From Hericium rajendrae (taxonomy: Eukaryota; Basidiomycota; Agaricomycetes; Russulales; Hericiaceae), in the NCBI GenBank assembly GCA_033439255.1, contig CM065886.1:1426001-1490000 (forward strand): 64,000 bases of DNA. Direction: 5' to 3'. The notes beneath the pieces were generated by a model. That model was not told the DNA's origin and did no database searches. It saw only the letters and a list, made by a program, of their open reading frames with translations. Position 1 is the stretch's first letter; every line of letters starts with the position of its first letter. Of the stretch, positions 20,781 to 63,606 are shown in pieces. The position numbers and the translations under genes are program-made.

Positions 20781-20835
20781 GTCAGCGCGGAAATGTCTGA
20801 GGGTATGAGGTGTGCTGATTGGAAAGCCTTGACGA

Positions 20836-20843
20836 TATATATA
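20836..20843 (-). promoter_or_regulatory. TATA box of dienelactone-hydrolase copy 1
   Basis: TATATATA sits about 56-63 bp upstream of ATG 20780, inside a CATGCTATATA context shared with copy 2. Confidence 0.5.
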
Positions 20844-20870
20844 GCATGGCGTGGACTTGGTCTCACTCAT

Positions 20871-43782: not shown

Positions 43783-43787
43783 GAACG
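43783..43787 (+). repeat. Target-site duplication GAACG, left
   Basis: GAACG directly precedes the left LTR and is repeated at 53683-53687 directly after the right LTR. Five base pairs is the usual copia target duplication. Confidence 0.9.
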
Positions 43788-44232: not shown

Positions 44233-44579
44233 CATCAGGAAAAAGTGTTTTTTGATTGATAGCCAGGATGATGTTACGTCAAGCTATGGTGTCAGTGCCT
44301 GTGCTACAAATAGATAACCGGTTGAATATGATAGCCGGTATTGAGATACTGATTGCGACTCAGTGTTACGTGTATTAGGGAGTGATCTACTGTAGCTTCT
44401 GTAGTTGACAGGATTTGCGTATTCCAAAGGCCACTCACATACCAAGTTATCAAGTCCGATGATTCATATTTTTTGTATTGTGGCTCATACTATAGTCAGG
44501 TCTTCTTGTATTATCTGAATCTTATTCACAAGGGTACAATTAAATCATATATCTCTCTGCACCGCAGCATTCAACACCC

Positions 44580-44615
44580 GTGGGAAGTCTTTTGCTACAG
44601 CAAAAAAGTTCCCAC
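44580..44615. repeat. 36-bp palindrome, outer, copy 1 left
   Basis: An imperfect palindrome with arms GTGGGAA...TTCCCAC. It marks the border of the AT-rich end and the GC-rich arm. Confidence 0.8.
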
Positions 44616-45014
44616 ATGCCACATCCACAGGGATTTGGCGGCACATGCATGCATGGGTAAATGGAGATGTGTGCGCAGGCCAGGGATGCAGGCTAGGGGT
44701 GCGTACATGAATTGGCAGTAGCGCACACAGATCAGTGTTTACGAACGCAGATTGGCGGTGCGGGCACAGGTTGGCAGGGGTGTGCGAGAGTCGACAGAAG
44801 CGTATGTGAGTCGGCAGGGGCTTGCGTGAGTTGATACACTGGATGGTGGTGATATGCATAGGTTGATGGAGGGAGGGACAGGTTGGTGAGGATATGCACG
44901 GTTCGACAGGCACCCACGCAGGTTGATGGTGACATGAAGGGGACAGCGGGAGTGCGCACTGGTCGGCACGTGCATGCGCAAGTCGACGGGGGCGTATGCA
45001 GGTCGCTGGTGCTG

Positions 45015-45170
45015 CACGCGGATTGGTGGAGATGCGCGCGGATTGGTGGAGATGCGCGCGGATCGGCGGGGACGTGCGCGGATCGGCGGGGACACGAGCA
45101 GATCGGCGGGGACACACACGGATGACGTGCGCAGATCGGCGGGGACGCGAGCAGATTGGCAGGGACATGC
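45015..45170. repeat. 20-bp GC-rich tandem repeat, copy 1
   Basis: Imperfect units of the type GCGCGCGGATCGGCGGGGAC repeat about eight times within a longer, more degenerate G-rich arm (about 44640-45740). Confidence 0.8.
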
Positions 45171-45968
45171 ATGGGTCGATGTTGATGCGTCGAGTCGACA
45201 AATGTGCAGTGGTCGGTGTGGGCATGCGCAAGTCGGCGGAGACGTGCACCGTCGATGGCGATACAGGCAGATCGACGGTCCACGAGGTGTGATGGGCATG
45301 CGCGAGGCACCGAGCCCGTGCACGGCGCAGCAGGCCCATGCAACGAGGTGCGAGGCGCGATGATGGGGCTCACGTGCGAGGCATAGGTGCACCTGCGCAC
45401 AGGCACGCATGTCGTGCGCGTGTGCGTGTCCTGGCTGGCATGCCCGCGCGCAGCTGTGACCATCCGCCGGCCATGCGTACGCTGGCGTGCTCAGCACAGC
45501 GTGGCTGCGCGCAGCGCCTGGGCCCGTGCATGAGACGGCATGCGTCGTCCGGCGGTGCGTGTGGCGGCGATGTCGGGGGTGGATCGGCGAGGGAGAGATG
45601 GCGGCGGGAGGGCATGGGCAGATCGGCGGGGGTGTGCGGTCGGCGGTGTGTGTGCGCGAATCGCCGGGAGCGTGCACAAGTCACTGGGAGCATGCGCGAG
45701 TTGGCAGCGAAGCGCACGGATTACGAGGCGTGCACAGGTAAATGCTTGCGTGTGCGAGTTGGTGCATGCGTGTGCGCAGCAATACCCTCTGTATGAGTAC
45801 CAAATAGAGGCCATAATCTTTTTTTTTACTCACTGTCTGACCCTCTCTTGTATTCCCTGTGGTGAATCCCACCGAAGTTACCTGGAAAAAGGTGTAAGTT
45901 GCAATCTGACGGATGAAAACGCACCTTTTACTGCCGTGAACAGTGACTTTGAGATGCAGAAATGGAGC

Positions 45969-46004
45969 GTGGGACGTGTTTGGCTGTAGCCAAATGTTTC
46001 CCAC
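45969..46004. repeat. 36-bp palindrome, central, copy 1
   Basis: Arms GTGGGA..TTTGGCT and AGCCAAA..TCCCAC. It is related to, but distinct from, the outer palindromes. Confidence 0.8.
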
Positions 46005-46082
46005 GCGCCCCCCGCGTTTTTTTTTGTTGAAGTCGAAATGCACGCAGGCAACGGCCCGCCACGCACCGTGCTGTTTTATTGC

Positions 46083-46092
46083 CCATATATGG
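46083..46092. promoter_or_regulatory. CCATATATGG palindrome in the core, copy 1
   Basis: It matches the CArG consensus CC(A/T)6GG and is followed by an ATAAAA run. It is kept in all three copies. A role as a MADS-factor site is inference only. Confidence 0.4.
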
Positions 46093-46324
46093 TCAATAAA
46101 AATGCATCGGGCCGTGCGGCTCCGTGCGGCGTGTGGTCGACTTGTTTGCCACGTCGTCTTCCACCTCCTTCCACTCACTCCTCCCACCACCACTCCCCTC
46201 CCTATCCTCCTCCCCTCCCTCCGTCGTCTCCCGTCAAACCGAATACCGAAGGACGGTAATAGGGTGACGAGGGCCCGTCAGGTGAGTAAAAAAAACTTTC
46301 CTCTTGCTTCTTCGTGCTAACATA

Positions 46325-46354
46325 GGGAGTATTGCTCGAATGAGCGATACTCTC
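46325..46354. repeat. Palindrome next to the C-rich arm, copy 1
   Basis: Arms GGGAGTATTGCTC and GAGCGATACTCTC. It separates the core from the C-rich arm. Confidence 0.75.
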
Positions 46355-47276
46355 GCCTTCGTTGGCCTCTTCTGTCCACTCTCCTCCTGCCGCCGCCTCT
46401 CCCCCATCAACCCACCCCCGATTCCGCCGCCGCACATACCGCCGCACGATGCACACGGCAGCCTGCCGCTCACTGCCTCCCCGTCTCGCGCACGGGCCCA
46501 GGTGCTGCATGCAACCCCGTCGTGCTGTGCACGCCAGCGCATGCACGGCTGGCAGATGGCCACAGCAGCGCGCGGGTATGCCAGCCGGCATACACACACG
46601 CGCACGTCGTGCGTGCCCATGTGCAGGCATACCGACGTTTCACATGCGAGCCTCGTATGTCACGCCTCGTGCCTCGTTGCTCAGGCCTCAGGCCTGCTGC
46701 GTTGTGCATGGGCTCAGTGCCTCGCACACGCCTGCCGCGCCTCGCCGCAACTGCATGCCTCACGAGCCCGATGTCCCGCAATGCCCCAATGCCCCGCAAC
46801 GTCCGCCTTACCTCGCGCACAGGGCCGTGGCAGCCCAGCACCCCGCGCCCGCTCACCGCACCTCGCTCACGTTCGCCACGCCTTGCCCATGCTCGTTGCG
46901 CCTCTCCCATGCCCGCCGCACCTCGCGCACAAGCCTGCCGCAGCCCCAGGCCCCGCAACGCCCGCCGCACCTCGCGTACATCTGCCGCACCTTGCACGCG
47001 CCTGTCACACCCCGTGCGCGCTCGCCGCACATCGCGCACGGCCTCGGTGCCCCACCGCACCTCGCACATGGGCCCAGTGCCTCGCGCACGCCCGCCGTGC
47101 TCCGCCGCACCTCGCGTATGAATTTGCCGCAGTCCGACGCTGGCGCACACGGCCACCATGCCTTTCGCATGCCCGCCGCACCTGGCACACGGACCCAGCA
47201 CCTTGTGAGTGTGCATGCCATTCGTGCCTCACTTTTCAACCCTGTAGTGACCCCCGTGCCGCCTTCTGCGCCCCCA

Positions 47277-47376
47277 CGCCACCTCTCGCGCCCCGCGCCA
47301 CCTCTCGCGCCCCGCGCCACCTCTCGCGCCCCGCGCCACCTCTCGCGCCCCGCGCCACCTCTCGCGCCCCCGCGCC
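47277..47376. repeat. 19-bp GC-rich tandem repeat, copy 1
   Basis: About five near-perfect units of CCACCTCTCGCGCCCCGCG lie in the C-rich arm. Confidence 0.85.
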
Positions 47377-47848
47377 GACTCGCGCGCCCCCCGCCGATGC
47401 TCCGGCACTCCCATGTGCCCGTGCCACCTCCTGCGCCTCCCCCCCCCCCCGGCCGCCTCCCACGCCCCGCGCGGCCTCCAGTGCACCCGTGCGGCCTCCA
47501 GCACACCAGTGCAGACTCGCACGCATCTGTGCGGATTCGCGCGTGTCCCCGCCGACTCAGCACGCCCCAACACGGACTCGCACACCCCCTTGCCGCCTTC
47601 AGAACACCTGCGCCGTCTCCCCTGTGCCCGCGCCATCTCCAGCATGCCCTTGCCACCTTGCCCGTGCCCGTGCGAACTCGTATGCGCCCGGGCCAGCTTC
47701 TGTGCACCCGCGCCAATGCCCGCGGGCCCATGCTGATGCCGTGCACCTGTGCTGACCCCTGCGCGCCCCTGCCACCTCCCGCACACCCTCACCAACTTCT
47801 CCATGCCCCACACTGACCCCCACATGCCCATGTTGCATTCTATAGTGC

Positions 47849-47884
47849 GTGGGAACTGTTTTGCTGCAGCGAAACAGTTCCCAC
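47849..47884. repeat. 36-bp palindrome, outer, copy 1 right
   Basis: Half-site GTGGGAACTGTTTTGCTG followed by its near-perfect inverse (one mismatch). Confidence 0.85.
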
Positions 47885-48310
47885 GAGGGCTTGGGTGCTG
47901 TGGGTGCAGAAGGATATGGAGGGGGAGATTTTATGTATTAGTACTATTAGTGTACCATTGTAACTGGCCAAATTAAAATGTTTTGCATGATATATTGTTG
48001 AAGAGGTGATATGAAGGACTATTGTGGATTATATATTATACTGAATCTCACATACTACAATATAGCACTCCAGTAGCTAGCATAAGCTACAGTGGCTAAC
48101 ATAAGCTACAGTAGCTAACATAAGCTATAGTAGATATACCATCTATAGACTGCTACCGATCACTACAGATGGCTACAGATGGCTACCTGTAGTTGTAATA
48201 AAGACCCACCTATCAACAGATGCTACAGAAAATATATAATCTATTATAGCTACTGTAGACCATATTTTCTACTGTAGGCTAAAGTAGTGTGGACACTTTT
48301 TCCAGATGCT

Positions 48311-48328
48311 CTAAGTCGTGTTTCTTCA
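48311..48328 (+). repeat. 5' LTR, last 18 bp
   Basis: CTAAGTCGTGTTTCTTCA is identical to the end of the right LTR. The rest of this LTR lies 4.08 kb upstream, beyond the foldback copy. Confidence 0.9.
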
Positions 48329-48340
48329 GGTTATGGGCCC
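48329..48340 (+). promoter_or_regulatory. Candidate primer-binding site
   Basis: GGTTATGGGCCC starts right after the LTR. It is close to the complement of the anticodon-stem region of initiator tRNA-Met (GGTTATGAGCCC), the internal priming used by Drosophila copia. This rests on recalled tRNA sequence and is tentative. Confidence 0.4.
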
Positions 48341-48905
48341 TGCCTGAACACCTGCTACACAAGAAGTTACCTTTGCTGTTTTACCAAGGCGAGTCACCTT
48401 TCCCAACTCGCGCCCCACTTGGAGTTCTTCAATGAACTGCCATCGTGCTCTCGCCCTTCGGGGTTACACGAGCGTCGACGACGGAAGCATGGCGATGCTA
48501 GAAGTCGGCGTGAGTCCACCTATCTGTGCTCCCTCTGTGCGCTTACTATACGTACGATACATGAGGCTCTGTCAAGGCTCGTGTCCTTGCTTCACCCTCT
48601 ACTGTAGTAGGCAAGCGTCGGGAAGCCGGCGTGATGCTATAAGGGATGTGAACGGTTGGCTATTGCCCTTAAGTGGGAATAGTTTTGGTGTCCCAATCCT
48701 GAGGGAGGTAGTCAATCCACCCAGGAGCACCTGTACAACTGCGCATCTCATACCTTACAAGTACTATAAGCGCACATGGACACAGATGGGACAGGATCTT
48801 ATGATCCTGGCTAGAGATACAGCACATGGGGTTGGCGTTGCCTTGAACTTCTTAAAGAACCTGGGTCTGACCGCTCCTCAACCCAGATATTCGCCTACAC
48901 ACACT

Positions 48906-49997
48906 ATGACCGACATACTCCCCCGTGGATTCGTTCATTTGAATGGCTCCAACTACCAGTCCTGGGCTCCGGCTATGACTGACTTCTTCCAGACCAAGCG
49001 TCTGTGGAAGTACGTTGGCAAGACCGTTACTTGTCCTTCACCCAAGGATCCCAAAGCTCCAACTGCCGAGGAGACGACCGCTATAGATGACTTCAATGAG
49101 GATAACGAGCAAGCGCTCGGTTATTTGAAGATGGCTTGTGTCCCTGCCGTCCGTGACCTGATAAAAGACAAGATATATGCTGAGACGGCATGGAATGAGC
49201 TTAAAAAGCTCTACAATAAAACGGACAACCGCCAGGCCTTCACTCTCTTCGACCTCTACCTCTCTCGTCGCTTTACTGAATCGGAGAAGATGCAGGACCA
49301 GATCAACTCCTTTAACCAGGAGTATGATGTCCTCAAGAATGCCGGTTGGAAGATTGACGATCTTCAGCATGGCTACTTCCTCCTTAAAGCACTCCCTCCT
49401 TCCTACAAGAACTTCTTTGAGGTCACCCTTAATTCCTATGCCGACCTCTCCAAAGCTACATCCCAGGACTTCATCACCAGAATCCTTGCTCAGGAGGCTG
49501 GAAAGAAGGCAGATGCAGTTGTCGCTCAGGTTAATTACCAGACTGCCTCTTCGTCTAAGAAACCACAGACGAAGAAGAAAGGCAAGTGTCACTACTGTCA
49601 AAAGTTGGGGCACTTTGAGTCAGACTGTAGGAAGAAGCAGGCGGACCAGAAAAAGAAAGGCGATGGTGGAGGGACTAGTAGTAAACCCTCTGTAAATGCG
49701 ATGGTCTCAGACGTCGCAGCACCTACCAATGCTATCGCTGTTTCCTGGTACCTGGAGTCAGATAAGAGCCGCTGGATGTTGGATAGCGGTTGTTCCCATC
49801 ATATCACACATACCCGTTCAGACTTTGACCATTATGAACCTATGCAAAGTCCCGGCCATATCTCGGTCGGCGACAGCACTGCTAGGAAGATGCCTTACTT
49901 CGGTACTGGCACGGTCAAGGGTTGGACGGATGTGGAGGGGAAGCATGTTGCGGTTACGCTTAGCAATGTGCTTTATGCACCTAAAGCCACACACTGA
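48906..49997 (+). CDS. Copia gag and protease region (gag-PR)
   Basis: The start is ATG 48906 (MTDILPRGFVHLNGSNYQSW), where gag similarity begins. The frame is open further upstream but without gag features. The capsid part includes YVGKTVTCP, AWNELKKLYNKTDNRQAF and FLLKALPPSYKNFF, typical of UBN2/gag-copia domains. A CCHC zinc knuckle (CHYCQKLGHFESDC, C228 to C241) precedes the protease motif WMLDSGCSHHIT with active-site D293. The frame then meets TGA at 49995-49997. The integrase-RT part continues in exactly the same frame, so one stop separates the two. It may be a C-to-T change at a former CGA or, less likely, a read-through stop. Confidence 0.9.
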   Translation: MTDILPRGFVHLNGSNYQSWAPAMTDFFQTKRLWKYVGKTVTCPSPKDPKAPTAEETTAIDDFNEDNEQALGYLKMACVPAVRDLIKDKIYAETAWNELKKLYNKTDNRQAFTLFDLYLSRRFTESEKMQDQINSFNQEYDVLKNAGWKIDDLQHGYFLLKALPPSYKNFFEVTLNSYADLSKATSQDFITRILAQEAGKKADAVVAQVNYQTASSSKKPQTKKKGKCHYCQKLGHFESDCRKKQADQKKKGDGGGTSSKPSVNAMVSDVAAPTNAIAVSWYLESDKSRWMLDSGCSHHITHTRSDFDHYEPMQSPGHISVGDSTARKMPYFGTGTVKGWTDVEGKHVAVTLSNVLYAPKATH

Positions 49998-52900
49998 TAC
50001 ATATCGGTGCCTACACTGTTGAACCAGAAGTTTGATGTACTTCTACGGGGTTCTTCAGGAGTGTGTACAATAGAACGCGATGGCATTACCTACGGGATTG
50101 GCAAAAAGTTAGACAGTTTTCACTGGCTGCTACTTGAGCCTACTCCTACGGTTAACGCGGCAGTTAAGGATGCAGTTTCGGTGGACACTGCTCATGCACG
50201 CTTTGCTCATATGTCATATGGTGCTCTGAAGCGACTCATTCCTGGAGTCGTAAAAGGCATCGTGATTGACCAATCCACAGTGGCTACTACGCCCTGTCAT
50301 GGATGTGAGCTTGGCAAGAGCACTCGCCAGACATACCCTACTTCAGAGAAGCGTGCTACACGGTTGCTAGGCAAAGTTCATTCAGACCTAGTCGGACCGA
50401 TGCGCATTCAATCTATCCAAGGATTTTCATACGTTGCTACGTTCCTCGACGACTTTAGCAGTAGAGGAGTCGTCATGTTCCTCAAACGGAAGTCTGATTT
50501 CACTCAGGCTTTCGAGTCATATTTGGCCAGAGCTGAGAAGGAGACTAGCCAAAAGCTGTTGATCTTTCACTCTGACCGAGGGGGGGAATATATGAACACA
50601 ATCCTGGATAAGCGCTTCAAAGAATTGGGTATCACGCACCATAAAACTATGCCGTATACGCCTCAGCAGAACGGACGTGCAGAGCGCTGGAACCGTACCT
50701 TTATGGAGAAAGCCCTGTCTATGTTACACCATGCAGGCTTGTCTCTCGGTTTCTGGCAGCTAGCGGTTGATACAGCAGTTCACATATACAACCGCACTCC
50801 CACTCGCGTACTAAAATGGAAGACGCCGATGGAGATTTGGGATGCTGGTCACATTCCTGACGTCTCGTACTTCCGCATTTTTGGCTGTAAAGCCTACGTA
50901 CACATTCAGAAGGAGCATCGTCACAAGTTGGAGCCTAACTCCAAGGAAATGACGTTTGTGGGTTATGAGGATGGTTCTAAAGGTTACCGTTTCTGGAACT
51001 CTACAACCCGGTCCATTGTCTTGTCTGGCGAAGCAAGATTCGATGAGACTTCCTTCCCTTCGCGACCAACCCAGAAAGCGCCCCCCAGCGCTCCTACTCC
51101 TCCTTTACCCAACCTGAGTCTCTCTGATTTATTCAATGATGAGGACTTAACTCCACCACGGAGGCCTGTACCCGCTTCAGCTGACGCAGCTGAAGATGAT
51201 GAGGATGATGATCCCCAGCCCCCAGTCCTTAAGAAGGAAGACGATTCTAAGGTTACACCTAATACTACTCCACCTACTACACCGCGCAAGCCACAACCAC
51301 CTCAAACACCACCACCTCGACCTACTAATCAACGGGTTGATGAAAATGCCCTAGCACATATACCACCTACGATTGAACAGTCTCCTCCTGTAGCTGATCC
51401 TGTCACACCGCCAGCTCGTCCACGGCGGGTGAATGCTGGTCAACGGGCTCCCAGGCTCAGAGATCAGTATAGTGGCTTAACTGCCACTCAGATCCAGCAG
51501 TTGGACCTTCGTAGGCACATACCAGAGACGAAGAATCGTCCAGCCAGTCCCGTGCCCCCGACCCAGGGCATGGCGCGACAGTTGGACTTTAACCCTCCTA
51601 ATCTCAATGCGCTGCTAGAAATGGGTGTTACTCGAGATCCCCGTGATTATTCAGAGGCAATGGCTTCATCAGACTCGGCGAAATGGCGTGAAGCGTGTCA
51701 GTATGAAATGGACCAGCTTCATAAGCTCGGTACATGGGAGTTAGTAGATCGACCTCGAGATAGGAAGATCGTAAAGAATCGTTGGGTTTTCAAGGCTAAG
51801 ACCAATGGCATTAATCGTGCACGTCTAGTAGCCAAAGGGTTTACACAGGTTCATGGGGTAGATTACACGGAAACCTTCAGTCCAGTCGCCCGCTTCGAAA
51901 CTATACGTTTCCTTCTTGCGTTAGCTGCGCAGGAAGATTGGGAAATACATGGCATGGATGTCAAGTCGGCATTCTTACATGGCGAGCTGGATGAAGAGAT
52001 CTTCATGGAGCAACCAGAAGGTTTCGTGACCCCAGGAATGGAGGACAAGGTGGCTCGATTGCTAAAAGCTATCTATGGCTTAAAGCAGGCGTCCAGAGTT
52101 TGGAACATTCAAATCGATGCTCTCTTGAAGGAAATTGGATTTACCAGGACCTATTCGGACACCGGTATATACGTCTATCGTCGACAGGAGGGGAATATAG
52201 TGACCATTTTGGTCTTGTATGTCGACGACATGGCGATCATGGGCAATTCGCTTCCAGAAATCAACCGTATTAAGACCTTGCTCAAGACTCGGTACGAGAT
52301 GTCAGACTTGGGAGAGTTGAAAGACTTCCTTGGCATGCGTATCACGAGAGATAGGCACAAGAGGACATTATCAATCGACCAGAAGACATATCTGGAAGAG
52401 GTCCTTGAACGGTTTGGAATGGATGAGGCGAACCCTGCCCGCACCCCTTTGCCTGCTGGCTGCATGTTGATAGCGTCCACTGAGGAAGTGGATAACGCAC
52501 TCCGGACTTATTATCAGTCGCTCATTGGCAGTATGATGTACTTCGCCATTGGCACTCGTCCGGATGTTGCATACGCTGTCGCTCGCTTGGCACAGTACAG
52601 TGCAAATCCCACTGAGAAGCATCTGAATATGGGCAAGTACGTCTTGAGGTACATTAGGGGAACCCTCGACTACTCCATAGTTTATGATGGCTTTGCAGAG
52701 GAAGCTCAACTGTTATGCTACACGGACTCTGACTTTGCTGAGAATCGGGATGACCGTCACTCTATCTCAGCGTTTGTTTTCAACCTGAGTGGTGGCGCTA
52801 TCTCCTGGATGTCTAGGAAGCAGACTAGTTCTGCACAATCCACAGCAGAGGCAGAGTACATAGCAATGGCGGAGGCCGCCAAGCAGTTGCAGTGGTACTA

Positions 52901-53183
52901 TAACTTGCACCTAGAGCTCGGACTACTGGACCCCACTCCCATCGACATGCGTTGTGATAACCGTGCTGCAATTCTTACTGCAGGCAATCCAATGGTCGGG
53001 AGAAACATGAAACATGTGGAGGTCAAATACCACTTCATCCGGGAAGCTGTAGAGAAGGGACTCGTTCACATAGTACCAACCCCATCGGCTGAGAACATCT
53101 CTGACGCATTGACTAAGTCTTTGCCACATGATTTGCTTACTCAGTTCAGTGGGAGTATGGGTCTGATCCGTCGTAGGGATTAG
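49998..53183 (+). CDS. Copia integrase, reverse transcriptase and RNase H region (pol)
   Basis: The frame is continuous with gag-PR after the TGA; the first ATG in it is at 50007 (residue 1 below). A GAG-pre-integrase zinc site (H63, H68, C97, C100) is followed by the integrase core with the DDE triad D127 (HSDLVGP), D190 (HSDRGGEY) and E226 (NGRAERWNRT). A Pro-rich linker (about 355-480) leads to the RT (NRWVFKAKT, KSAFLHGELDEEIFM, catalytic YVDD at 738-741). RNase H follows with D907 (CYTDSDFA), E950 (STAEAEYIAM) and D984 (RCDNRAAI). It ends at 53183, 36 bp before the LTR. All catalytic residues are present and no frameshift is seen. Confidence 0.93.
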   Translation, partial: YISVPTLLNQKFDVLLRGSSGVCTIERDGITYGIGKKLDSFHWLLLEPTPTVNAAVKDAVSVDTAHARFAHMSYGALKRLIPGVVKGIVIDQSTVATTPCHGCELGKSTRQTYPTSEKRATRLLGKVHSDLVGPMRIQSIQGFSYVATFLDDFSSRGVVMFLKRKSDFTQAFESYLARAEKETSQKLLIFHSDRGGEYMNTILDKRFKELGITHHKTMPYTPQQNGRAERWNRTFMEKALSMLHHAGLSLGFWQLAVDTAVHIYNRTPTRVLKWKTPMEIWDAGHIPDVSYFRIFGCKAYVHIQKEHRHKLEPNSKEMTFVGYEDGSKGYRFWNSTTRSIVLSGEARFDETSFPSRPTQKAPPSAPTPPLPNLSLSDLFNDEDLTPPRRPVPASADAAEDDEDDDPQPPVLKKEDDSKVTPNTTPPTTPRKPQPPQTPPPRPTNQRVDENALAHIPPTIEQSPPVADPVTPPARPRRVNAGQRAPRLRDQYSGLTATQIQQLDLRRHIPETKNRPASPVPPTQGMARQLDFNPPNLNALLEMGVTRDPRDYSEAMASSDSAKWREACQYEMDQLHKLGTWELVDRPRDRKIVKNRWVFKAKTNGINRARLVAKGFTQVHGVDYTETFSPVARFETIRFLLALAAQEDWEIHGMDVKSAFLHGELDEEIFMEQPEGFVTPGMEDKVARLLKAIYGLKQASRVWNIQIDALLKEIGFTRTYSDTGIYVYRRQEGNIVTILVLYVDDMAIMGNSLPEINRIKTLLKTRYEMSDLGELKDFLGMRITRDRHKRTLSIDQKTYLEEVLERFGMDEANPARTPLPAGCMLIASTEEVDNALRTYYQSLIGSMMYFAIGTRPDVAYAVARLAQYSANPTEKHLNMGKYVLRYIRGTLDYSIVYDGFAEEAQLLCYTDSDFAENRDDRHSISAFVFNLSGGAISWMSRKQTSSAQSTAEAEYIAMAEAAKQLQWYYNLHLELGLLDPTPIDMRCDNRAAILTAGNPMVGRNMKHVEVKYHFIREAVEKGLVHIVPTPSAENISDALTKSLPHDLLTQFSGSMGLIRRRD

Positions 53184-53210
53184 TGGGAGTCATGGTTCGA
53201 CTAGCCCATC

Positions 53211-53219
53211 AAGTGGGAG
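53211..53219 (+). promoter_or_regulatory. Polypurine tract
   Basis: AAGTGGGAG directly precedes the right LTR, the expected plus-strand priming site. A similar AGTGGGAG occurs about 30 bp earlier. Confidence 0.65.
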
Positions 53220-53682
53220 TGTTGAAATCGGTTGATGACGCTAGTCTCGATGACAACAATTATGGAAAGATCTGGAACGATCTGGACTTTGGTGATTGCA
53301 GAATCACATGGAACATTTACATAGCCTTACTGTACAGGTTAGTAATATGCTCTGACATACGCTTACTGATACCTTAGTGAGCTGACTGATGCTGTTCCCA
53401 TGCGATGAGCAATCCATTATGCTATGCTGTACGATTACTGTACAATTTCTGATTGGTAGATATGCAGAGCCCTCAGTACTATATAAGGGCTCCCTCGTTC
53501 GCTCAGATACCTCAGTCTTTCACATCACAGACTGAGGTGAGCATATCCTGCATTACTTATGAGTTTCATCTTTACTGACTCTACTTGTAGTATAGACTAA
53601 CGTCTCTCTAAGGTACTGCAATATAGTCTTTCACATCACAGACTGAGTATAGACTAACGTCTCTCTAAGTCGTGTTTCTTCA
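53220..53682 (+). repeat. 3' LTR of the copia element
   Basis: 463 bp, TGTTG...TTCA. It differs from the 5' LTR only at 53348 (T for C, at a CpG). Contains the TATA box (53480-53486) and the CTCAGTCT stem-loop (53511-53536), and is followed by the GAACG duplication at 53683-53687. Confidence 0.93.
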
Positions 53683-53687
53683 GAACG

Positions 53688-54375
53688 GGCATCACTCCCT
53701 TTAACGCAGTGGTCTACACTTTATGGTGTGTCTCATTGTCTCTTTAGGATATTGACTAGGATCATATTTTAAACAGCAGACGGGCTATGGTTTTAGGTTC
53801 CATTATCAACCATAGATCGTGTGGAATCTATGTTCCACACTCAAGTAGCCTTCCATGCTGGCCAGGCTGCGGTACGTCTATCGTCAAGTCACATCTCTAT
53901 GCTTCTGGTGTGCCTTTCACCCGCCAACGCTGCAGGAACAAGCATCGATTATTGTTCCCGCAGGTCAGCGCACGAGGTCAGTGCACGGACCCTCATGAAC
54001 GGAGGCAAATCTGTGCCGCGTGAGGCGGCCCAATGGAAATCTCCCCGTACGTGGCCGCACATATCTTTGAGACTACGAACCCTGATTTGCACGTCTTACA
54101 GGAGCAACACCGGGCATGAGTTCAATCAGTACATAGGTATTTCGTGAGTGGGAGATGTGGGGCATAGTGACTATCTTTCGTCCTCACCTCACAATGTACC
54201 ATACAGCTTGCAATTCAAATTCCATGGCCGTGGCATGATTCATCTCCCGTCGGGTCCGAGCTACGGCCTTTGCACCTCCATCCGATGCTCTCATTTGTCG
54301 CGCTCAGACTGAGGACCACTCCCTGTTGTTCTGTCATCCCTTCTTCGAGATCATCTGCTGCAGCCTTCGTTTCTC
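53688..54375. other. Region between the copia element and the broken gene
   Basis: No gene is recognised. Overlapping frames up to 108 codons lack motifs. The end is probably the promoter of the gene starting at 54376. Confidence 0.4.
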
Positions 54376-55604
54376 ATGGAATTCACTCTGCAGACTCCTA
54401 AGGGCCCCTGGCAATGTGATCGATGTGCCCGCCGCTTCTCAGAAAATGTGAAAGCAACCCTTATTCCCAGAAAAGGCACTGCAGGAAGGACTTGTTGTCC
54501 AGATTGTACAGATCACTACGAGCAGAAAAGAGCCAATATGGAACAACCTGGCCGCTTAGGTTCGTAGCTTATTCTCGTTTGTCTTTTTGTGCTGTTTCCT
54601 CACCTAGGTGAATAGCCTTCACCGCGCAGGTCCCAGGACATGGTGCAGGTGCGTGATTACTCGCTTTTTTTGCTGTCTCGATCTCATTATATTCTTCTTT
54701 GTTGAAGGCCTCCATCGTCAGACAGCTCCATCCCGTTCTATCAGGCCTCCATCCCACTCCTACGCCGACCCACGCTCGATGCCACCACCGCTTATGGTCC
54801 CTGCGCAGAGCTCTGGGCACCGCTCCGCCCCCCTTTCAGCAGGGATGGACATCGCACAGCAGACCAGCGCAAAGTATGCAATGCCGCCCCCATTGCCTCC
54901 ACCAGCTCTAGGCTATAATGAAAACCACCTTCACTATTCTCATTATCAAGCCGTCGAGGTCAGAAAGATGCATGCAGAGATCAGCGCACGTTCAGCGAAG
55001 GTTCAGTTTGCCCTGCATCATCTGAAGGACGAGGGCCAATCGGGGACTGCTCTAGTCGGCGTAAGTCATGCTTTCGTTGCATGAATCTGTTCTGACATCA
55101 CGTTCAGAACATCGAGCGCGATTACCATGTCGATGGAGAGATCAGTTGCATGGAGCTACAAGCAACAGCAATTCGGGTTCCATCTGGAAAAAGTGTCCAC
55201 ACTACTTTAGCCTACAGTAGAAAATATGGTCTACAGTAGCTATAATAGATTATATATTTTCTGTAGCATCTGTTGATAGGTGGGTCTTTATTACAACTAC
55301 AGGTAGCCATCTGTAGCCATCTGTAGTGATCGGTAGCAGTCTATAGATGGTATATCTACTATAGCTTATGTTAGCTACTGTAGCTTATGTTAGCCACTGT
55401 AGCTTATGCTAGCTACTGGAGTGCTATATTGTAGTATGTGAGATTCAGTATAATATATAATCCACAATAGTCCTTCATATCACCTCTTCAACAATATATC
55501 ATGCAAAACATTTTAATTTGGCCAGTTACAATGGTACACTAATAGTACTAATACATAAAATCTCCCCCTCCATATCCTTCTGCACCCACAGCACCCAAGC
55601 CCTC

Positions 55605-55640
55605 GTGGGAACTGTTTCGCTGCAGCAAAACAGTTCCCAC
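55605..55640. repeat. 36-bp palindrome, outer, copy 2 left
   Basis: Counterpart of 47849-47884: GTGGGAACTGTTTCGCTG with its inverse. Confidence 0.85.
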
Positions 55641-56114
55641 GCACTATAGAATGCAACATGGGCATGTGGGGGTCAGTGTGGGGCATGGAGAAGTTGGTGA
55701 GGGTGTGCGGGAGGTGGCAGGGGCACGCAGGGGTCAGCACAGGTGCACGGCATCAGCATGGGCCCGCGGGCATTGGCGCGGGTGCACAGAAGCTGGCCCG
55801 GGCGCATACGAGTTCGCACGGGCACGGGCGAGGTGGCAAGGGCATGCTGGAGATGGCGCGGGCACAGGGGAGACGGCGCAGGTGTTCTGAAGGCGGCAAG
55901 GGGGTGTGCGAGTCCGTGTTGGGGCGTGCTGAGTCGGCGGGGACACGCGCGAATCCGCACAGATGCGTGCGAGTCTGCACTGGTGTGCTGGAGGCCGCAC
56001 GGGTGCACTGGAGGCCGCGCGGGGCGTGGGGGCGGCGGGGGGGGGGCGGGGGAGGCGCAGGAGGTGGCACGGGCACATGGGAGTGCCGGAGCATCGGCGG
56101 GGGGCGCGCGAGTC

Positions 56115-56214
56115 GGCGCGGGGGCGCGAGAGGTGGCGCGGGGCGCGAGAGGTGGCGCGGGGCGCGAGAGGTGGCGCGGGGCGCGAGAGGTGGCGCGGGG
56201 CGCGAGAGGTGGCG
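56115..56214. repeat. 19-bp GC-rich tandem repeat, copy 2
   Basis: Counterpart of 47277-47376, here G-rich on the plus strand. Confidence 0.85.
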
Positions 56215-57136
56215 TGGGGGCGCAGAAGGCGGCACGGGGGTCACTACAGGGTTGAAAAGTGAGGCACGAATGGCATGCACACTCACAAGGTGCTGGGTCC
56301 GTGTGCCAGGTGCGGCGGGCATGCGAAAGGCATGGTGGCCGTGTGCGCCAGCGTCGGACTGCGGCAAATTCATACGCGAGGTGCGGCGGAGCACGGCGGG
56401 CGTGCGCGAGGCACTGGGCCCATGTGCGAGGTGCGGCGGGGCACCGAGGCCGTGCGCGATGTGCGGCGAGCGCGCACGGGGTGTGACAGGCGCGTGCAAG
56501 GTGCGGCAGATGTACGCGAGGTGCGGTGGGCGTTGCGGGGCCTGGGGCTGCGGCAGGCTTGTGCGCGAGGTGCGGCGGGCATGGGAGAGGCGCAACGAGC
56601 ATGGGCAAGGCGTGGCGAACGTGAGCGAGGTGCGGTGAGCGGGCGCGGGGTGCTGGGCTGCCACGGCCCTGTGCGCGAGGTAAGGCGGACGTTGTGGGGC
56701 ATTGGGGCATTGCGGGACATCGGGCTCGTGAGGCATGCAGTTGCGGCGAGGCGCGGCAGGCGTGTGCGAGGCACTGAGCCCATGCACAACGCAGCAGGCC
56801 TGAGGCCTGAGCAACGAGGCACGAGGCGTGACATACGAGGCTCGCATGTGAAACGTCGGTATGCCTGCACATGGGCACGCACGACGTGCGCGTGTGTGTA
56901 TGCCGGCTGGCATACCCGCGCGCTGCTGTGGCCATCTGCCAGCCGTGCATGCGCTGGCGTGCACAGCATGACGGGGTTGCATGCAGCACCTGGGCCCGTG
57001 CGCGAGACGGGGAGGCAGTGAGCGGCAGGCTGCCGTGTGCATCGTGCGGCGGTATGTGCGGCGGCGGAATCGGGGGTGGGTTGATGGGGGAGAGGCGGCG
57101 GCAGGAGGAGAGTGGACAGAAGAGGCCAACGAAGGC

Positions 57137-57166
57137 GAGAGTATCGCTCATTCGAGCAATACTCCC
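57137..57166. repeat. Palindrome next to the core, copy 2
   Basis: Counterpart of 46325-46354: GAGAGTATCGCTC with its inverse. Confidence 0.75.
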
Positions 57167-57398
57167 TATGTTAGCACGAAGAAGCAAGAGGAAAGTTTTT
57201 TTTACTCACCTGACGGGCCCTCGTCACCCTATTACCGTCCTTCGGTATTCGGTTTGACGGGAGACGACGGAGGGAGGGGAGGAGGATAGGGAGGGGAGTG
57301 GTGGTGGGAGGAGTGAGTGGAAGGAGGTGGAAGACGACGTGGCAAACAAGTCGACCACACGCCGCACGGAGCCGCACGGCCCGATGCATTTTTATTGA

Positions 57399-57408
57399 CC
57401 ATATATGG
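57399..57408. promoter_or_regulatory. CCATATATGG palindrome in the core, copy 2
   Basis: Same position in the core as in copies 1 and 3. Confidence 0.4.
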
Positions 57409-57486
57409 GCAATAAAACAGCACGGTGCGTGGCGGGCCGTTGCCTGCGCGCATTTCGACTTCAACAAAAAAAAACGCGGGGGGCGC

Positions 57487-57522
57487 GTGGGAAACATTTG
57501 GCTACAGCCAAACACGTCCCAC
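57487..57522. repeat. 36-bp palindrome, central, copy 2
   Basis: Counterpart of 45969-46004: arms GTGGGAAACATTTGGCT and AGCCAAACACGTCCCAC. Confidence 0.8.
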
Positions 57523-58320
57523 GCTCCATTTCTGCATCTCAAAGTCGCTGTTCACGGCAGTAAAAGGTGCGTTTTCATCCGTCAGATTGCAACTTACACC
57601 TTTTTCCAGGTAACTTCGGTGGGATTCACCACAGGGAATACAAGAGAGGGTCAGACAGTGAGTAAAAAAAAAGATTATGGCCTCTATTTGGTACTCATAC
57701 AGAGGGTATTGCTGCGCACACGCATGCACCAACTCGCACACGCAAGCATTTACCTGTGCACGCCTCGTAATCCGTGCGCTTCGCTGCCAACTCGCGCATG
57801 CTCCCAGTGACTTGTGCACGCTCCCGGCGATTCGCGCACACACACCGCCGACCGCACACCCCCGCCGATCTGCCCATGCCCTCCCGCCGCCATCTCTCCC
57901 TCGCCGATCCACCCCCGACATCGCCGCCACACGCACCGCCGGACGACGCACGCCGTCTCATGCACGGGCCCAGGCGCTGCGCGCAGCCACGCTGTGCTGA
58001 GCACGCCAGCGTACGCATGGCCGGCGGATGGTCACAGCTGCACGCAGGCATGCCAGCCAGGACACGCACACGCGCACGACATGCGTGCCTGTGCGCAGGT
58101 GCACCTATGCCTCGCACGTGAGCCCCATCATCGCGCCTCGCACCTCGTTGCATGGGCCTGCTGCGCCGTGCACGGGCTCGGTGCCTCGCGCATGCCCATC
58201 GCACCTCGTGGACCGTCGATCTGCCTGTATCGCCATCGACGGTGCACGTCTCCGCCGACTTGCGCATGCCCACACCGACCACTGCACATTTGTCGACTCG
58301 ACGCATCAACATCGACCCAT

Positions 58321-58476
58321 GCGTGTCCCTGCCAATCTGCTCGCGTCCCCGCCGATCTGCGCACGTCATCCGTGTGTGTCCCCGCCGATCTGCTCGTGTC
58401 CCCGCCGATCCGCGCACGTCCCCGCCGATCCGCGCGCATCTCCACCAATCCGCGCGCATCTCCACCAATCCGCGTG
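58321..58476. repeat. 20-bp GC-rich tandem repeat, copy 2
   Basis: Counterpart of 45015-45170, C-rich on the plus strand. Confidence 0.8.
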
Positions 58477-58875
58477 CAGCACCAGCGACCTGCATACGCC
58501 CCCGTCGACTTGCGCATGCACGTGCCGACCAGTGCGCACTCCCGCTGTCCCCTTCATGTCACCATCAACCTGCGTGGGTGCCTGTCGAACCGTGCATATC
58601 CTCACCAACCTGTCCCTCCCTCCATCAACCTATGCATATCACCACCATCCAGTGTATCAACTCACGCAAGCCCCTGCCGACTCACATACGCTTCTGTCGA
58701 CTCTCGCACACCCCTGCCAACCTGTGCCCGCACCGCCAATCTGCGTTCGTAAACACTGATCTGTGTGCGCTACTGCCAATTCATGTACGCACCCCTAGCC
58801 TGCATCCCTGGCCTGCGCACACATCTCCATTTACCCATGCATGCATGTGCCGCCAAATCCCTGTGGATGTGGCAT

Positions 58876-58911
58876 GTGGGAACTTTTTTGCTGTAGCAAA
58901 AGACTTCCCAC
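58876..58911. repeat. 36-bp palindrome, outer, copy 2 right
   Basis: Counterpart of 44580-44615, imperfect. Confidence 0.8.
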
Positions 58912-60123
58912 GGGTGTTGAATGCTGCGGTGCAGAGAGATATATGATTTAATTGTACCCTTGTGAATAAGATTCAGATAATACAAGAAGACCTGACTATA
59001 GTATGAGCCACAATACAAAAAATATGAATCATCGGACTTGATAACTTGGTATGTGAGTGGCCTTTGGAATACGCAAATCCTGTCAACTACAGAAGCTACA
59101 GTAGATCACTCCCTAATACACGTAACACTGAGTCGCAATCAGTATCTCAATACCGGCTATCATATTCAACCGGTTATCTATTTGTAGCACAGGCACTGAC
59201 ACCATAGCTTGACGTAACATCATCCTGGCTATCAATCAAAAAACACTTTTTCCTGATGTCTGTCTCCTGCCTGGCAACAGTGGGCGCCAACTCAAGTCTT
59301 TGACACAGTGGACTTGGCCAATTTGGAGATGTGTTACCCACCGAGGCTCGTCCTGTTCGACCCCTTGAACCCTGAAAATGACCCCCAGCACCGTGTGCTG
59401 TATGAATGCGGATACAAGCCCTCGGTTGGGAAATCGAAGGGTCGACCGAAGGCCATCAAAATCATCTTGGTGTTAGATTACACCACGTTCGAGCAGGCTC
59501 TTTTTATTCACGAGCAAGTGGCTTTGCTAGGCTCCCAGCCTGCCGACACGGCTTCAGTTTCAGAGGAACCTGTGCGTTGCTAGTCACATTATTGTTCTCG
59601 TACTTACTCGAGCTATTCTGTTGGAACCTTTCAGGACCGCAAACGCACGGCTTTGAAGCATCGCTTTACAGAAGACGAGTTCAATCAACTCCCAGAGAAG
59701 TGCATCTGGAAAAAGTGTCCACACTACTTTAGCCTACAGTAGAAAATATGGTCTACAGTAGCTATAATAGATTATATATTTTCTGTAGCATCTGTTGATA
59801 GGTGGGTCTCTATTACAACTACAGGTAGCTGTCTGTAGCCATCTGTAGTGATCCGTAGCAGTCTGTAGATGGTATATCTACTATAGCTTATGTTAGCTAC
59901 TGTAGCTTATGTTAGCCACTGTAGCTTATGCCGGCTACTGTGGTGCTATACTGCAGTATGTGAGATTCAGTATAATATAGTTTCTTATAATTCATTATAG
60001 TCTCTGATCACATCTCAAACAATATATCATGCAAAATTTTGTATTCTGGCTAGTTACATCTTGTATACTAATAGTACTAGTGCATGATATCTCCCCCTCT
60101 ATATCCACAGCATTCAATGCCTC

Positions 60124-60159
60124 ATGGGAACTGTTTTGCTGCAGCAAAACAGTTCCCAC
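60124..60159. repeat. 36-bp palindrome, outer, copy 3 left
   Basis: Half-site TGGGAACTGTTTTGCTG and perfect inverse. Only the outermost pair is broken (A for G). Confidence 0.85.
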
Positions 60160-61142
60160 GCACTACAGGAGGCAGCATGGGCGTGTAGGAGTCGGCGGAG
60201 GCATGCGGAGGTCGGCGAGGGCATGCGGATATCAGCGGGGACATGCTGGAGGTGGCAGGGGCATGCTGGAGTCGGCGAGGGCACGCGCGAGTCGGCGGGG
60301 GTGCGTGGGCATGGGCATGGGCATGCTAGAGTCGGCATGGGCATGCAGGCATCGGTGCGGGCACATGCGAGTCGGCGGGGACGTGGGGCATCGGCGCATG
60401 TGCGTTCGAGTCGGTGCATGTGCATAGGAGGCAGCATGCGGGAGTCGGCACAGGTGGGTGGGAGGCGGTGGGAGCGCGCGGGAGGCAGCGCGGATGCGGG
60501 GGAGTCGGCGCAGGCGCGCGGGCATCGGCGCGAGGGCGCAGGCATCGGTGCGAGGGCGCAGGCATCGGCGCGAGGGCGCGGGCATCAGCGGGAGTGCGGG
60601 AGGCGGCAGACGCGCGCGGGAGGCGGCGCTGGTGTGCAGAAGTCGGCGTGGACGAGGAGAGGTGGTGGGAGTGCGCGGGAGGCGATGGGAGCACGCAGGA
60701 GGCAGCACGGGTGGGTGGGAGTCGGCGAGAGCATGCGGGAGGCGACAGGGGCGTGCAAGGGGCGACGTGGGTGCATGGGAGTTGGCGAGGGCGCGCGGGC
60801 ACGCGGGAGGCAGTAGGGGCACGTGGGAGTCGGCTGCCACCTCCGCCCACCCCGACCCCCCTCGCGCCCTCGCCAGCTCCCGTGTGCCCATGTCTCCTCT
60901 CGCATGCCCACCCCAACTCCCACTAACTCCCGCGCACCCTCTCCCAACTCCCGCACCCCCACACCGACTCGCTCGCACCCCTGCTGCCTCCCGCACCCCC
61001 GCGCTGCCTTCCACATGTGCTTGCTGACTCACTCACCTCTGCGAGCGTGCAGAAGTCGCGTGGGTCGGCGGGGGCTTGTGTGGGCCGGCAGTGACGCGTG
61101 CAGGTTGACGGGGCATGTGGAGATCGGTGGGTGTGCGCGCGA

Positions 61143-61268
61143 GTCGGCGTGGTGCGAGCGAGTCGGCGGGGTGCGCGCGGGTCGGCGGGGTGCGCGCGGG
61201 TCGGCGGGGTGCGTGCGGGTCGGCGGGGTGCGCGCGAGTTGGCGGGGTGCGAGCAAGTCGGCGGGGTA
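61143..61268. repeat. 19-bp GC-rich tandem repeat, copy 3
   Basis: Units of the type GTGCGCGCGGGTCGGCGGG repeat six to seven times. The unit differs from those in copies 1 and 2 but keeps the same G-rich bias. Confidence 0.8.
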
Positions 61269-61525
61269 CACGTGACTTGGCGTGGGCGGGCGAGAGGCAG
61301 CACGGGCGCGGGGAGTCGATGGGGCGCAAGTGAGTCGGTGGTGGTGCGAGCGACTCGGTAGGAGGTGCACGGGAGTCGGCGTGGCGTGCGGGAAGTGACG
61401 TGGCGTGCGGGAGGCAACGTGGGCCGTGCGGGAGTCAGCGAAGGCATACGGGGAAGGTGGTGGGGATGCACAGGAGGCAGCGCGGGCGTGCAGGCGTTGG
61501 TGGGGCCATGCAGAGTGTACAAAAC

Positions 61526-61559
61526 GAGAGTATCGCTCGACACCACGAGCGATACTCTC
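61526..61559. repeat. Palindrome left of the core, copy 3
   Basis: Arms GAGAGTATCGCTCG and CGAGCGATACTCTC around a six-base loop; perfect stem. Confidence 0.85.
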
Positions 61560-61766
61560 TTGATTAGTACAATAAAGCTACAGCAGAAAGTGTAGCTACT
61601 CACCTTTATTCCCAGCCCAACAAGAATCGAAAAAGATGAAGAGACACTTACAATTAAAATTCCAGCATGAGGAAGGGGTGGGTGGAAGGAAGACGACGTG
61701 GCAGGCAAAGTCAAATCGCGCGCAAGTCGAGCGCACGGAGCCGTGCGGCCCGATTCATTTTAGTGA

Positions 61767-61776
61767 CCATATATGG
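61767..61776. promoter_or_regulatory. CCATATATGG palindrome in the core, copy 3
   Basis: Kept in this copy although the arms have diverged. It is followed by a GATAAAACAGCACGGTG stretch shared with the other copies. Confidence 0.4.
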
Positions 61777-61853
61777 ACGATAAAACAGCACGGTGTGCGG
61801 CGGGCCGTGCCTGCGCGCGTTTCGACTTGAAGAAAAAAAAATGCGGGGGGCGC

Positions 61854-61889
61854 GTGGGAAACGTTTGGCTACAGCCAAACACGTCCCAC
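61854..61889. repeat. 36-bp palindrome, central, copy 3
   Basis: GTGGGAAACGTTTGGCT and its near-perfect inverse AGCCAAACACGTCCCAC. Confidence 0.82.
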
Positions 61890-62045
61890 GGCTGTTTTTT
61901 CAAACCTGCAAGGTACGTTTCTCTCCTTGAATGAATGGTTCACACATCTTTTTCAGGTATCTAGGCAAATTCACTACAGGGAAGAGCCGTAGAGGGCTAC
62001 AAGGTGAGTAAAACAGTTCTATTAACCTCATTTTGCACTAATATA

Positions 62046-62081
62046 GAGAGTATTGCTCGTTTGAATACGGGCAATACTCTC
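62046..62081. repeat. Palindrome right of the core, copy 3
   Basis: Arms GAGAGTATTGC and GCAATACTCTC. It mirrors the palindrome at 61526. Confidence 0.82.
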
Positions 62082-63221
62082 GTTTTTACCCTACACAATG
62101 CCCCCATTGACACCCGCAACCTCCGCATGCCCCTGCCGACTCTCGCACGCCTCTGTCGTCCTCCCCGCATCCCCTGCTGCCTCCCGCGCGCCCCTGCCAT
62201 CTCCCGCGTGCCCGCATCACCTCGCGCCCGCTGCCGTCTCCCACACGCCTGTGTCGCCTCACGCGCCCCTGCATTGCCTTCCCCGCCTGTCCGTGCCGTC
62301 TCCCTCGCGCCCGCGCCGTCTCGCCCATGCTGATGGCGTCTTCCCCGTGCACCTGCCATCTCCCACAAGCCCACACCGTCTCCCGCACATCCACGCAGAC
62401 TCGTGCACCCCCGCACCAGCACCAGCACTCCCGCACTGACTTGCACGCGCCTGCGCGAACTCACACGTGTCCGCGCCACCTCCTGCGTGCCCGCGCCGCC
62501 TCCTGTGCGCCCACACCGTCTCCCGCGCACTCCCTACACATCGCCTCCCCCCACTCACATATCTCCCCCACATCCACGCCATCTCGCGCACATTGGCGCT
62601 GTCTCCCTCCATGCCGCTAACCCCTCCCCAGCTCTTCCTGCTGCCTCCCCCGTGCCCCCACCATCTCCCGTGCCCCCACTCGCCTCGCGCGCATTGGCGC
62701 CGTCTTCCTTGTACATGCCGGCGTCCTTTCCTGTGCACCCGCGCTGCCTTGCGCACGCAGGCGCCGCCTCCCCTGCGTCCATGCCACCTTGCTCGCATCT
62801 GCGCCACCTCGCGCACACCCATGCTGCCTCCCCCATGCCGGCGCCATCTCGCGCGTGTCCGCGCTGCCTCCCCCACATACACGCACCCCTCTTGCACGCG
62901 CATGCCCCTCCGCGCGCCTTTGCCGTCTCCCCATGCCCGCATTGCCTCGTGCGCATCCACACCGTCTCCGCCGCGCCCCTGCCACCGTGCCCCTGCCATC
63001 TCTCCCGCCTCTGCACCACCGCGCGTGCATCCACGCTGTCTCCCCTGCACTGCTGCCGCCTCTCCCCCGCACCGCCGCCTCCCGCACGTTCGTGCTGCCG
63101 CCTTCCGCGCGTCCGCGCCGCTTTGCACATGCTGATGCCACCTTGTTCGCACCCGCATCCAGTCTCTCCTGCCTGTGCCAAGTCACGCATGCTCCCACCA
63201 ACTCCCCTACAGATGCAAAAT

Positions 63222-63257
63222 GTGGGAACTGTTTTGCTGCAGCAAAACAGTTCCCAT
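63222..63257. repeat. 36-bp palindrome, outer, copy 3 right
   Basis: GTGGGAACTGTTTTGCTG followed by its inverse; only the last base deviates. Confidence 0.87.
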
Positions 63258-63606
63258 GCTCAGATAGTTTGAAGGAGACGTATTAGAATCTTGTACATTA
63301 GATTACATTTGTAACTACTGTAGGCCCAATGAGAATCATTGTGAACATCTATAGTGAAATCAAAGGATAATTTGGGCATTTAAGCATGCTTTTGAGAGTG
63401 CAGAATTGCTCAGAGTGAACATTTTATTTTTGTGATCTACCAGTGCTACAAGAAGTACGGTAGCTGTAGTTCTGGCTTTGTAAGATTGCCGGGTCTCCGG
63501 ATATCAAACCAGTGGCTTACGATTACCAAAGCTCGGTTACTATAGCCAAGGCTCGGCTACCGTAGCCATACCTCGGCTTTTACCCAAAAAACCATTTTTC
63601 CTGATG

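Follow-up and report, generated by a model that had tools for sequence, protein, structure and literature searches.

The 64,000-nucleotide stretch of Hericium rajendrae DNA considered here (the window; G000:C9:1426001-1490000, in a genome of 46.8 Mb on 19 contigs) carries three related elements of about 4 kb, and their short inverted ends, palindromes and GC-rich repeat arms raise the question of what they are and how elements of this kind might move. The answer developed below is that they are very probably non-autonomous DNA transposons of PlavakaB type, most likely moved in trans by the transposase of larger relatives and bearing an interior that may be divergently transcribed. The superfamily is known. 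What looks new is the layout of the interior, with its mirror-image introns, 20-bp CpG arms and hairpins, of which no description was met in the sections consulted of the literature on Plavaka and its non-autonomous relatives; on basidiomycete foldback transposons no paper was met.

The three copies and their ends

The copies measure 4,076, 4,078 and 3,904 bp, the second and third being inverted relative to the first. Copies 1 and 2 are 99.56% identical (4,079 columns). Between copies 1 and 3 the identity is 85% in the right terminal 0.5 kb, and the same search matched the interior of copy 3 in short pieces only. Copies 1 and 2 are bounded by 16-bp terminal inverted repeats (TIRs), CATCAGGAAAAAGTGT on the left and CATCTGGAAAAAGTGT on the right, which agree at 15 of 16 positions, and the left TIR of copy 3 reads CATCAGGAAAAATGGT. 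Both terminal regions are AT-rich with CTGTAGC-type repeats, the right one also being poor in CpG. In the terminal 500 bp of the 18 complete elements tabulated from the genome (described below), CTGTAGC or GCTACAG occurs 106 times, near-identical copies counted, as against 1.46 in mononucleotide shuffles.

44233..48308, + strand: copy 1, read as a non-autonomous Plavaka-type element, 4,076 bp; target site duplication (TSD) CT, 2 bp; empty site in the 3' long terminal repeat (LTR) of a retrotransposon
44233..44248, + strand: left TIR of copy 1, CATCAGGAAAAAGTGT
44249..44579, + strand: left AT-rich subterminal region with CTGTAGC-type repeats
47886..48292, + strand: right AT-rich, CpG-poor subterminal region with CTGTAGC/GCTACAG
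48293..48308, - strand: right TIR of copy 1, CATCTGGAAAAAGTGT as read on that strand
55181..59258, - strand: copy 2, 4,078 bp, in the opposite orientation to copy 1; TSD of 2 bp, GA on the element strand and TC on the window strand
59703..63606, - strand: copy 3, 3,904 bp, inverted; no TSD found at its flanks

Larger elements with the same ends encode a Plavaka transposase

A search of the genome with the TIR pattern, allowing up to one mismatch, found TIR pairs at C2:25000, C2:3857472 and C4:1119862 with a spacing of 12,414-12,416 bp, and each pair encloses a match to the Plavaka transposase profile PF18759. This profile has 132 matches genome-wide, several per gene, and none in 14 control genomes; the same search of the genome gave no match within the three window copies. 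Within the C4 element (L045/L046) lie a Plavaka exon (E 1e-85), fragments in L046 that resemble Ulp1 protease (the best at E 6.5e-6) and, at L045:3271-3657, a fragment like TET/JBP oxygenases (PF12851, 31.5 bits, under the Pfam cut-off of 34.9). One of its ends is 83% identical to copy 1 over the right terminal 205 bp or so (E 2e-57), and the other is 71% identical to copy 1 over the left terminal 172 bp (E 2e-18), with both similarities extending past the TIR. All three of these larger elements are flanked by 2-bp TSDs as read from their flanks (TG, TC and CA), and their ends are 99.8-100% identical among themselves over 420 bp, which suggests recent movement. The left-type C4 end has a further counterpart, 93% identical, at C7:2318801, with a Plavaka match no more than 3 kb away; the second end belonging to this counterpart was not found in the region inspected.

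Beyond the ends, the sole match between the interior of the C4 element and the three window copies is the palindrome described below; the C4 element carries two palindromes of this type. The ends of the 12.4-kb elements hold 1.0 CpG per 100 bp where they are of right type and 4.0-4.3 where they are of left type. The window family and these near-identical, apparently recent Plavaka copies make up a candidate donor and helper system within a single genome. C5:1354284 and C5:1393850, which are some 40 kb from each other, carry right-type ends in inverted orientation; their flanks are alike as well, a Plavaka match lies between them, and the pair looks like an inverted segmental duplication.

Copy number, target site duplications and an empty site

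The family comprises dozens of copies, since the left-end search of the genome gave 23 matches, all of them scored, and the right-end search 88 candidates, 40 of which were scored. Eighteen complete elements of 3.3-7.9 kb were tabulated, chosen for having both ends within fetched sequence; outside this table stand L038 (a single end), L044 (two ends in the same orientation, forming no pair), a lone end in L029, the 14.3-kb L030/L031 (ends in two loci, with an AG/AG duplication) and the unfetched right-end matches. The TSD is 2 bp in 15 of the 18 elements, 3 bp in two (L032 and L043) and missing in one, copy 3 of the window. L039 and L040 have identical flanks and so represent one insertion that was duplicated, which leaves 17 independent cases.

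Copy 1 provides the most direct view of an insertion. It lies in, and splits, the 5' LTR of a Copia-type LTR retrotransposon (window 43787-53683) that has gag, integrase and reverse transcriptase by Pfam, with gag and pol open reading frames at 48432-49997 and 50007-53183. The two LTRs are nearly identical, matching at 445 of 446 bases on the left side.

53219..53683, + strand: 3' LTR of the Copia element split by copy 1, right limit approximate; empty site

The interrupted LTR reads GTCTCT, element, CTCTAAG, as against GTCTCTCTAAG in the 3' LTR, so that exactly 2 bp were gained on insertion. The TSD of copy 1 is therefore 2 bp and not 4 bp, although the flanks alone would allow both.

Placement among known superfamilies

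The shared ends, the Plavaka gene in the 12.4-kb elements, the TSDs and the empty site together place the family in a non-autonomous PlavakaB-type group, within the CMCT clade (CACTA/EnSpm-Mirage-Chapaev-Transib and relatives). Left ends begin with CATCAGG and right ends with CATCTGG in all 18 tabulated elements, which were picked by such ends; TSDs of 2 or 3 bp flank 17 of them, and the PF18759 transposase is present in the group through the three 12.4-kb elements and not in the window copies. Plant CACTA/EnSpm elements have a short TIR, subterminal arrays of short repeats in both orientations and a GC-rich, methylation-prone interior, together with CACTA/G termini and 3-bp TSDs; we know of none with mirrored hairpin arms. 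The window family resembles them in its short TIR, its subterminal repeat arrays and its GC-rich, apparently methylation-prone interior, and differs in having CATC termini, rather than CAC..GTG, and TSDs of mostly 2 bp (15 of 18). In Foldback (FB/TU) elements, inverted arrays of short tandem repeats constitute the terminal inverted repeats themselves, whereas the comparable arrays of the window family are internal, beginning some 400 bp inside a TIR of 16 bp. The 8-bp TSD of hAT elements was not seen in any of the 18 tabulated elements, nor was the lack of both TSD and TIR that marks a Helitron.

In the sections of the literature consulted, PlavakaB elements have CATCA..TGATG termini and TSDs of 2 or 3 bp, and the TET-positive Plavaka all fall within PlavakaB (Kojima 2025, PMC12730594). 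The likeness to the present group lies in the CATC-type termini, the 2- or 3-bp TSDs, the Plavaka transposase of 12.4-kb relatives with the same ends, and the TET/JBP-like fragment of the C4 element, as in some PlavakaB; the differences are that the window family is without a transposase gene and has CATCT at its right terminus. Those sections say nothing of hairpins, of mirrored introns or of CpG arms with a 20-bp unit. Non-autonomous DNA elements of Marasmius oreades, as far as the parts of the reports consulted go, have likewise been classed by the TIR and TSD of autonomous relatives and are mostly under 1,000 bp (PMC8290104, PMC9674265), whereas the window family reaches 3.3-7.9 kb with an elaborate interior.

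Palindromes, arms and core

Each half of an element is ordered, from the outside inward, as TIR, AT-rich subterminal region, palindrome H1, GC-rich arm, palindrome H2 (in most copies), an intron-like stretch and a core shared by the two halves, which holds palindrome H3 and a palindrome around CCATATATGG. H1 has the form GTGGGAA..TTCCCAC, H2 is a third palindrome type, GAGAGTAT..ATACTCTC, on the flanks of the core, and the palindromes at nearly fixed places span 34-38 bp. In copy 1 the interior is laid out as follows, the limits of the arms being those set for analysis.

44580..44615, no strand: left palindrome H1, GTGGGAA..TTCCCAC; RNA fold z -5.2
44633..45710, + strand: left arm, rich in GC and dense in CpG, with a 20-bp period; G-rich on the + strand
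45970..46003, no strand: core palindrome H3, TGGGACGTGTTTGGCTGTAGCCAAATGTTTCCCA
46074..46101, no strand: core palindrome around CCATATATGG
46326..46353, no strand: palindrome H2, GAGTATTGCTC..GAGCGATACTC, immediately 3' of the putative 3' splice site
46420..47847, + strand: right arm, rich in GC and dense in CpG, with units of 19-20 bp; C-rich on the + strand
47848..47885, no strand: right palindrome H1, 38 bp; RNA fold z -8.7

The core alignment, the hairpin covariation, the comparison of left with right arms and the intron count that follow omit the near-identical copy 2, L035 and L040, and the comparison of left with right arms also leaves aside L025, L026 and L027, which carry inserts (that of L026 is an extra insert of about 3.1 kb). 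With no more than three mismatches, the 34-bp palindrome pattern is present in the core of all 18 elements and, in every one of them, at a distance of 424-481 bp from the right end; near the left end 15 elements have it, at 326-362 bp, the exceptions being L027, L036 and L041. The CCATATATGG motif is exact in 11 of 15 aligned cores and has a single change in the other four. All 36 arms have their highest autocorrelation peak at 20 bp, a weak one in the left arms of L025 and L036. Strand-bias profiles of copy 1, copy 3 and L032 give a G-rich left arm and a C-rich right arm, with one reversed 200-bp stretch in copy 3. Reverse-complementing the right arm gives a closer match to the left arm than shuffled sequence does in 11 of 12 elements. 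The four single-strand hairpins tried as RNA fold strongly (z -5.2 to -8.7).

The 34-bp palindrome pattern occurs at 59 places in the genome, as against none for a control pattern. Eight of these places were fetched, seven without a nearby listed TIR and one (C3:1398049) with; for seven of the eight, L057 being the exception, a right-type end that belongs to a further TIR subgroup is found at a distance of 432-450 bp, and on this ground the view that the hairpins are independent mobile repeats was rejected. L051 and L052 among them are copies of each other, flanks included.

Most of the structure put forward in the original prediction is thereby upheld: the three lengths, now with settled coordinates and strands, the short inverted ends, the CTGTAGC-rich subterminal regions, the GC-rich arms of opposite strand bias (with a repeat unit corrected to about 20 bp) and the small conserved core, as seen in the aligned cores. 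Its 36-bp palindromes at fixed positions are present at nearly fixed places, but their sizes vary and H2 has to be added as a third type; and its three copies are three in the window only, the genome total being far higher.

Intron-like stretches flanking the core

Two mirror-image intron-like stretches of 43-45 nt point outward from the core.

45789..45833, - strand: putative leftward intron of copy 1, GTGAGT..CTCAT..CAG, 45 nt
46282..46325, + strand: putative rightward intron of copy 1, GTGAGT..GCTAAC..AG, 44 nt
61559..61603, - strand: putative rightward intron (element sense) of copy 3, 45 nt, TACTAAT branch site
62004..62046, + strand: putative leftward intron (element sense) of copy 3, 43 nt

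The rightward stretch has GT[GA]AGT or GTGTGT, a CTAAY branch site and an AG just before H2 in all 15 aligned cores, and the leftward one is clean in 11. A stricter intron pattern, which misses the GTGTGT and CTCAT forms, occurs 21 times in the 15 cores (13 rightward, 8 leftward) where 0.08 would be expected from first-order Markov shuffles; outside the cores the counts are four for the remainder of the elements and one for the window up to 43.5 kb. Copies that have diverged keep the splice sites and branch points but differ in the middles of the introns. From this we infer that the core is a divergent, spliced and probably non-coding transcription unit. The rightward half-module, comprising exon, intron, hairpin and GC array, also occurs one-sidedly elsewhere, at L059-L062. 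No end pair of the usual kind was found at these four loci, which probably belong to other transposon families.

CpG decay in the arms

In the four arms of the close pairs L028/L039 and L041/L042, changes amount to 235 transitions as against 5 transversions, and they fall on 175 of 870 CpG sites, 42 of 708 CpA sites and 18 of 1,237 CpC and CpT sites. This pattern fits deamination of methylated CpG, which would point to methylation of the arms. In five elements measured the arms hold 5-14 CpG per 100 bp as against 0.4-0.7 in the right end, where the same two pairs differ by a single change in 918 columns. The constancy of the right end may merely follow from its scarcity of CpG, and no claim of selection is therefore made. 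The left end is intermediate, with 0.3-2.6 CpG per 100 bp and with 9 and 8 changes between the members of the two pairs, in 340 columns each.

Proposed mode of movement and expression

In the account favoured here, a Plavaka transposase supplied by larger relatives (the 12.4-kb elements, for example) would bind the 16-bp TIRs and the CTGTAGC-type subterminal repeats, excise the copies and reinsert them in trans, creating a duplication of 2 bp and sometimes of 3 bp; such movement in trans is the most likely route. The core would meanwhile drive two divergent spliced, probably non-coding transcripts, each running through a hairpin into a CpG-dense 20-bp array, and CpG transitions of the kind expected in methylated DNA would make up most of the mutation in the arrays, with hardly any change in the CpG-poor right end.

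Several observations weigh against the PlavakaB placement and this account of the interior. Movement and excision, and equally transcription, splicing and methylation, are read from sequence. The Plavaka elements share only their ends with the window family, at 71-83% and not near-identically, and published PlavakaB has CATCA at both ends, as against CATCA on the left and CATCT on the right here and CATCT at both termini of the 12.4-kb elements. The tabulated elements were selected and oriented by their ends, so that only the TSDs form an independent test, and at the flanks of copy 3 no duplication is detectable. The leftward intron-like stretch is clean in no more than 11 of the 15 aligned cores; L032 and L033 have the AG shifted by 3 nt, and L036 and L043 lack it. 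The hairpins show no covariation, with 0, 0 and 1 of 17 positions per class having two Watson-Crick types and a paired fraction about equal to that of shuffled sequence, so that, despite the strong folds, a DNA dyad or plain conservation accounts for them as well as an RNA hairpin does. Finally, for the second TIR subgroup described below the nearest Plavaka end, L049, has no similarity to the members L047, L048 and L050 past the TIR.

Alternative explanations

The mirror-image layout, with left arms that approximate the reverse complement of right arms in 11 of 12 elements, and an interior for which no counterpart was found in the C4 Plavaka element, the hairpin motif and the ends excepted, might suggest instead a separate, undescribed superfamily of foldback type, mobile through its hairpins and inverted GC arms and served by a transposase of its own. 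The inverted ends, however, are 16 bp and not long; in four distant pairs the arms are 0.49-0.75 identical as against 0.72-0.94 for the ends; and the ends, TSDs and subterminal repeats are common to elements that encode Plavaka, which largely refutes such a superfamily and leaves it very unlikely. The foldback label of the original prediction, in its classical sense of long inverted ends, is accordingly dropped, since the TIRs are so short and the termini and TSDs agree with PlavakaB. Its companion claim that the elements fit nothing described fails for those same termini and TSDs, although no description of the interior layout was met, and with Plavaka a known, named superfamily the idea of an unknown one falls. 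Its proposal of a non-autonomous family with a transposase encoded elsewhere is supported by Plavaka elements in the genome whose ends and TSDs are of the same kind, and the longer transposase-bearing copies that it proposed looking for are the three 12.4-kb elements. A hAT origin was considered on account of a gene in the 7.9-kb copy L025, at C2:987048, which looks hAT-like from motifs judged by eye and which might have supplied the source transposase. The family's TSDs are 2-3 bp and not 8, four open reading frames of the gene have no Pfam match, and the gene sits in an insert at about L025:634-4423 (element 434-4223) with an 8-bp overlap relative to L037, which as a target duplication makes it look like a nested element. 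On that overlap a hAT origin was rejected, and we give it next to no credence.

With the family retained as PlavakaB-type, the interior can still be read in more than one way. Long stretches free of stop codons, the longest of 410 aa in L025, run through the GC-rich arms in several frames at once and could be taken for repetitive proteins that would make the element autonomous or a carrier of genes. The arms nevertheless have a 20-bp period, and no frame was seen to be conserved across copies. Four close pairs have 11 indels in their arms, of 1, 2, 2, 3, 14, 20, 20, 20, 40, 41 and 430 bases; one of these lengths is divisible by three, and so is that of a 285-base gap between L041 and L042 at the left H1. 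Codon-position bias was absent between close copies in the five tests with enough changes (p 0.27-0.68), and p reached 0.02 in one of ten blocks of the distant pair copy 1 and L043. Coding arms were rejected on the period, the indels and the lack of bias in close copies, in keeping with the original prediction that nothing is convincingly protein-coding, and the proposal is scarcely credible. A reading of the interior that is compatible with PlavakaB-type movement, and that stands at not quite an even chance, is that the arms and hairpins are functionless satellite growth lying between two conserved ends and the apparent introns remnants of a captured promoter fragment: the arms diverge fastest, often in 20-bp units, the half-module is found one-sidedly at other loci, and the hairpins show no covariation, set against which are the 20-bp period, the hairpin places and the splice signals, all kept in diverged copies. 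At the other extreme the interior might be an epigenetic design, in which CpG-poor ends, the right one almost devoid of CpG, bind transposase, divergent spliced and hairpin-tipped CpG arrays attract or absorb methylation so that the ends stay readable, and a TET/JBP-bearing Plavaka partner supplies both transposase and demethylation. This is improbable, and was rated lower on account of the left end, whose CpG content is no more than intermediate and which changes between close copies; if true, it would describe a non-coding transposon selected for transcription and CpG partition, not a passive deletion derivative. Conserved mirror introns without a reading frame, and the contrast in CpG, beside a partner that bears TET/JBP make a proposed role of transposon TET genes testable.

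Related ends and other repeats

A second TIR subgroup (AACTG; CATC[AT]GGAAAAACTG) is represented by L047, L048 and L050, which are 3.1-3.9 kb long and have different palindromes. No target duplication could be read from the flanks of L047, and this element has the rightward core module of the window family (170 bp, 73.5%). Elsewhere in the window, a direct repeat of about 1.15 kb, 74% identical, occupies 19699-20849 and 23997-25145, with a 32-bp palindrome at 19675-19706.

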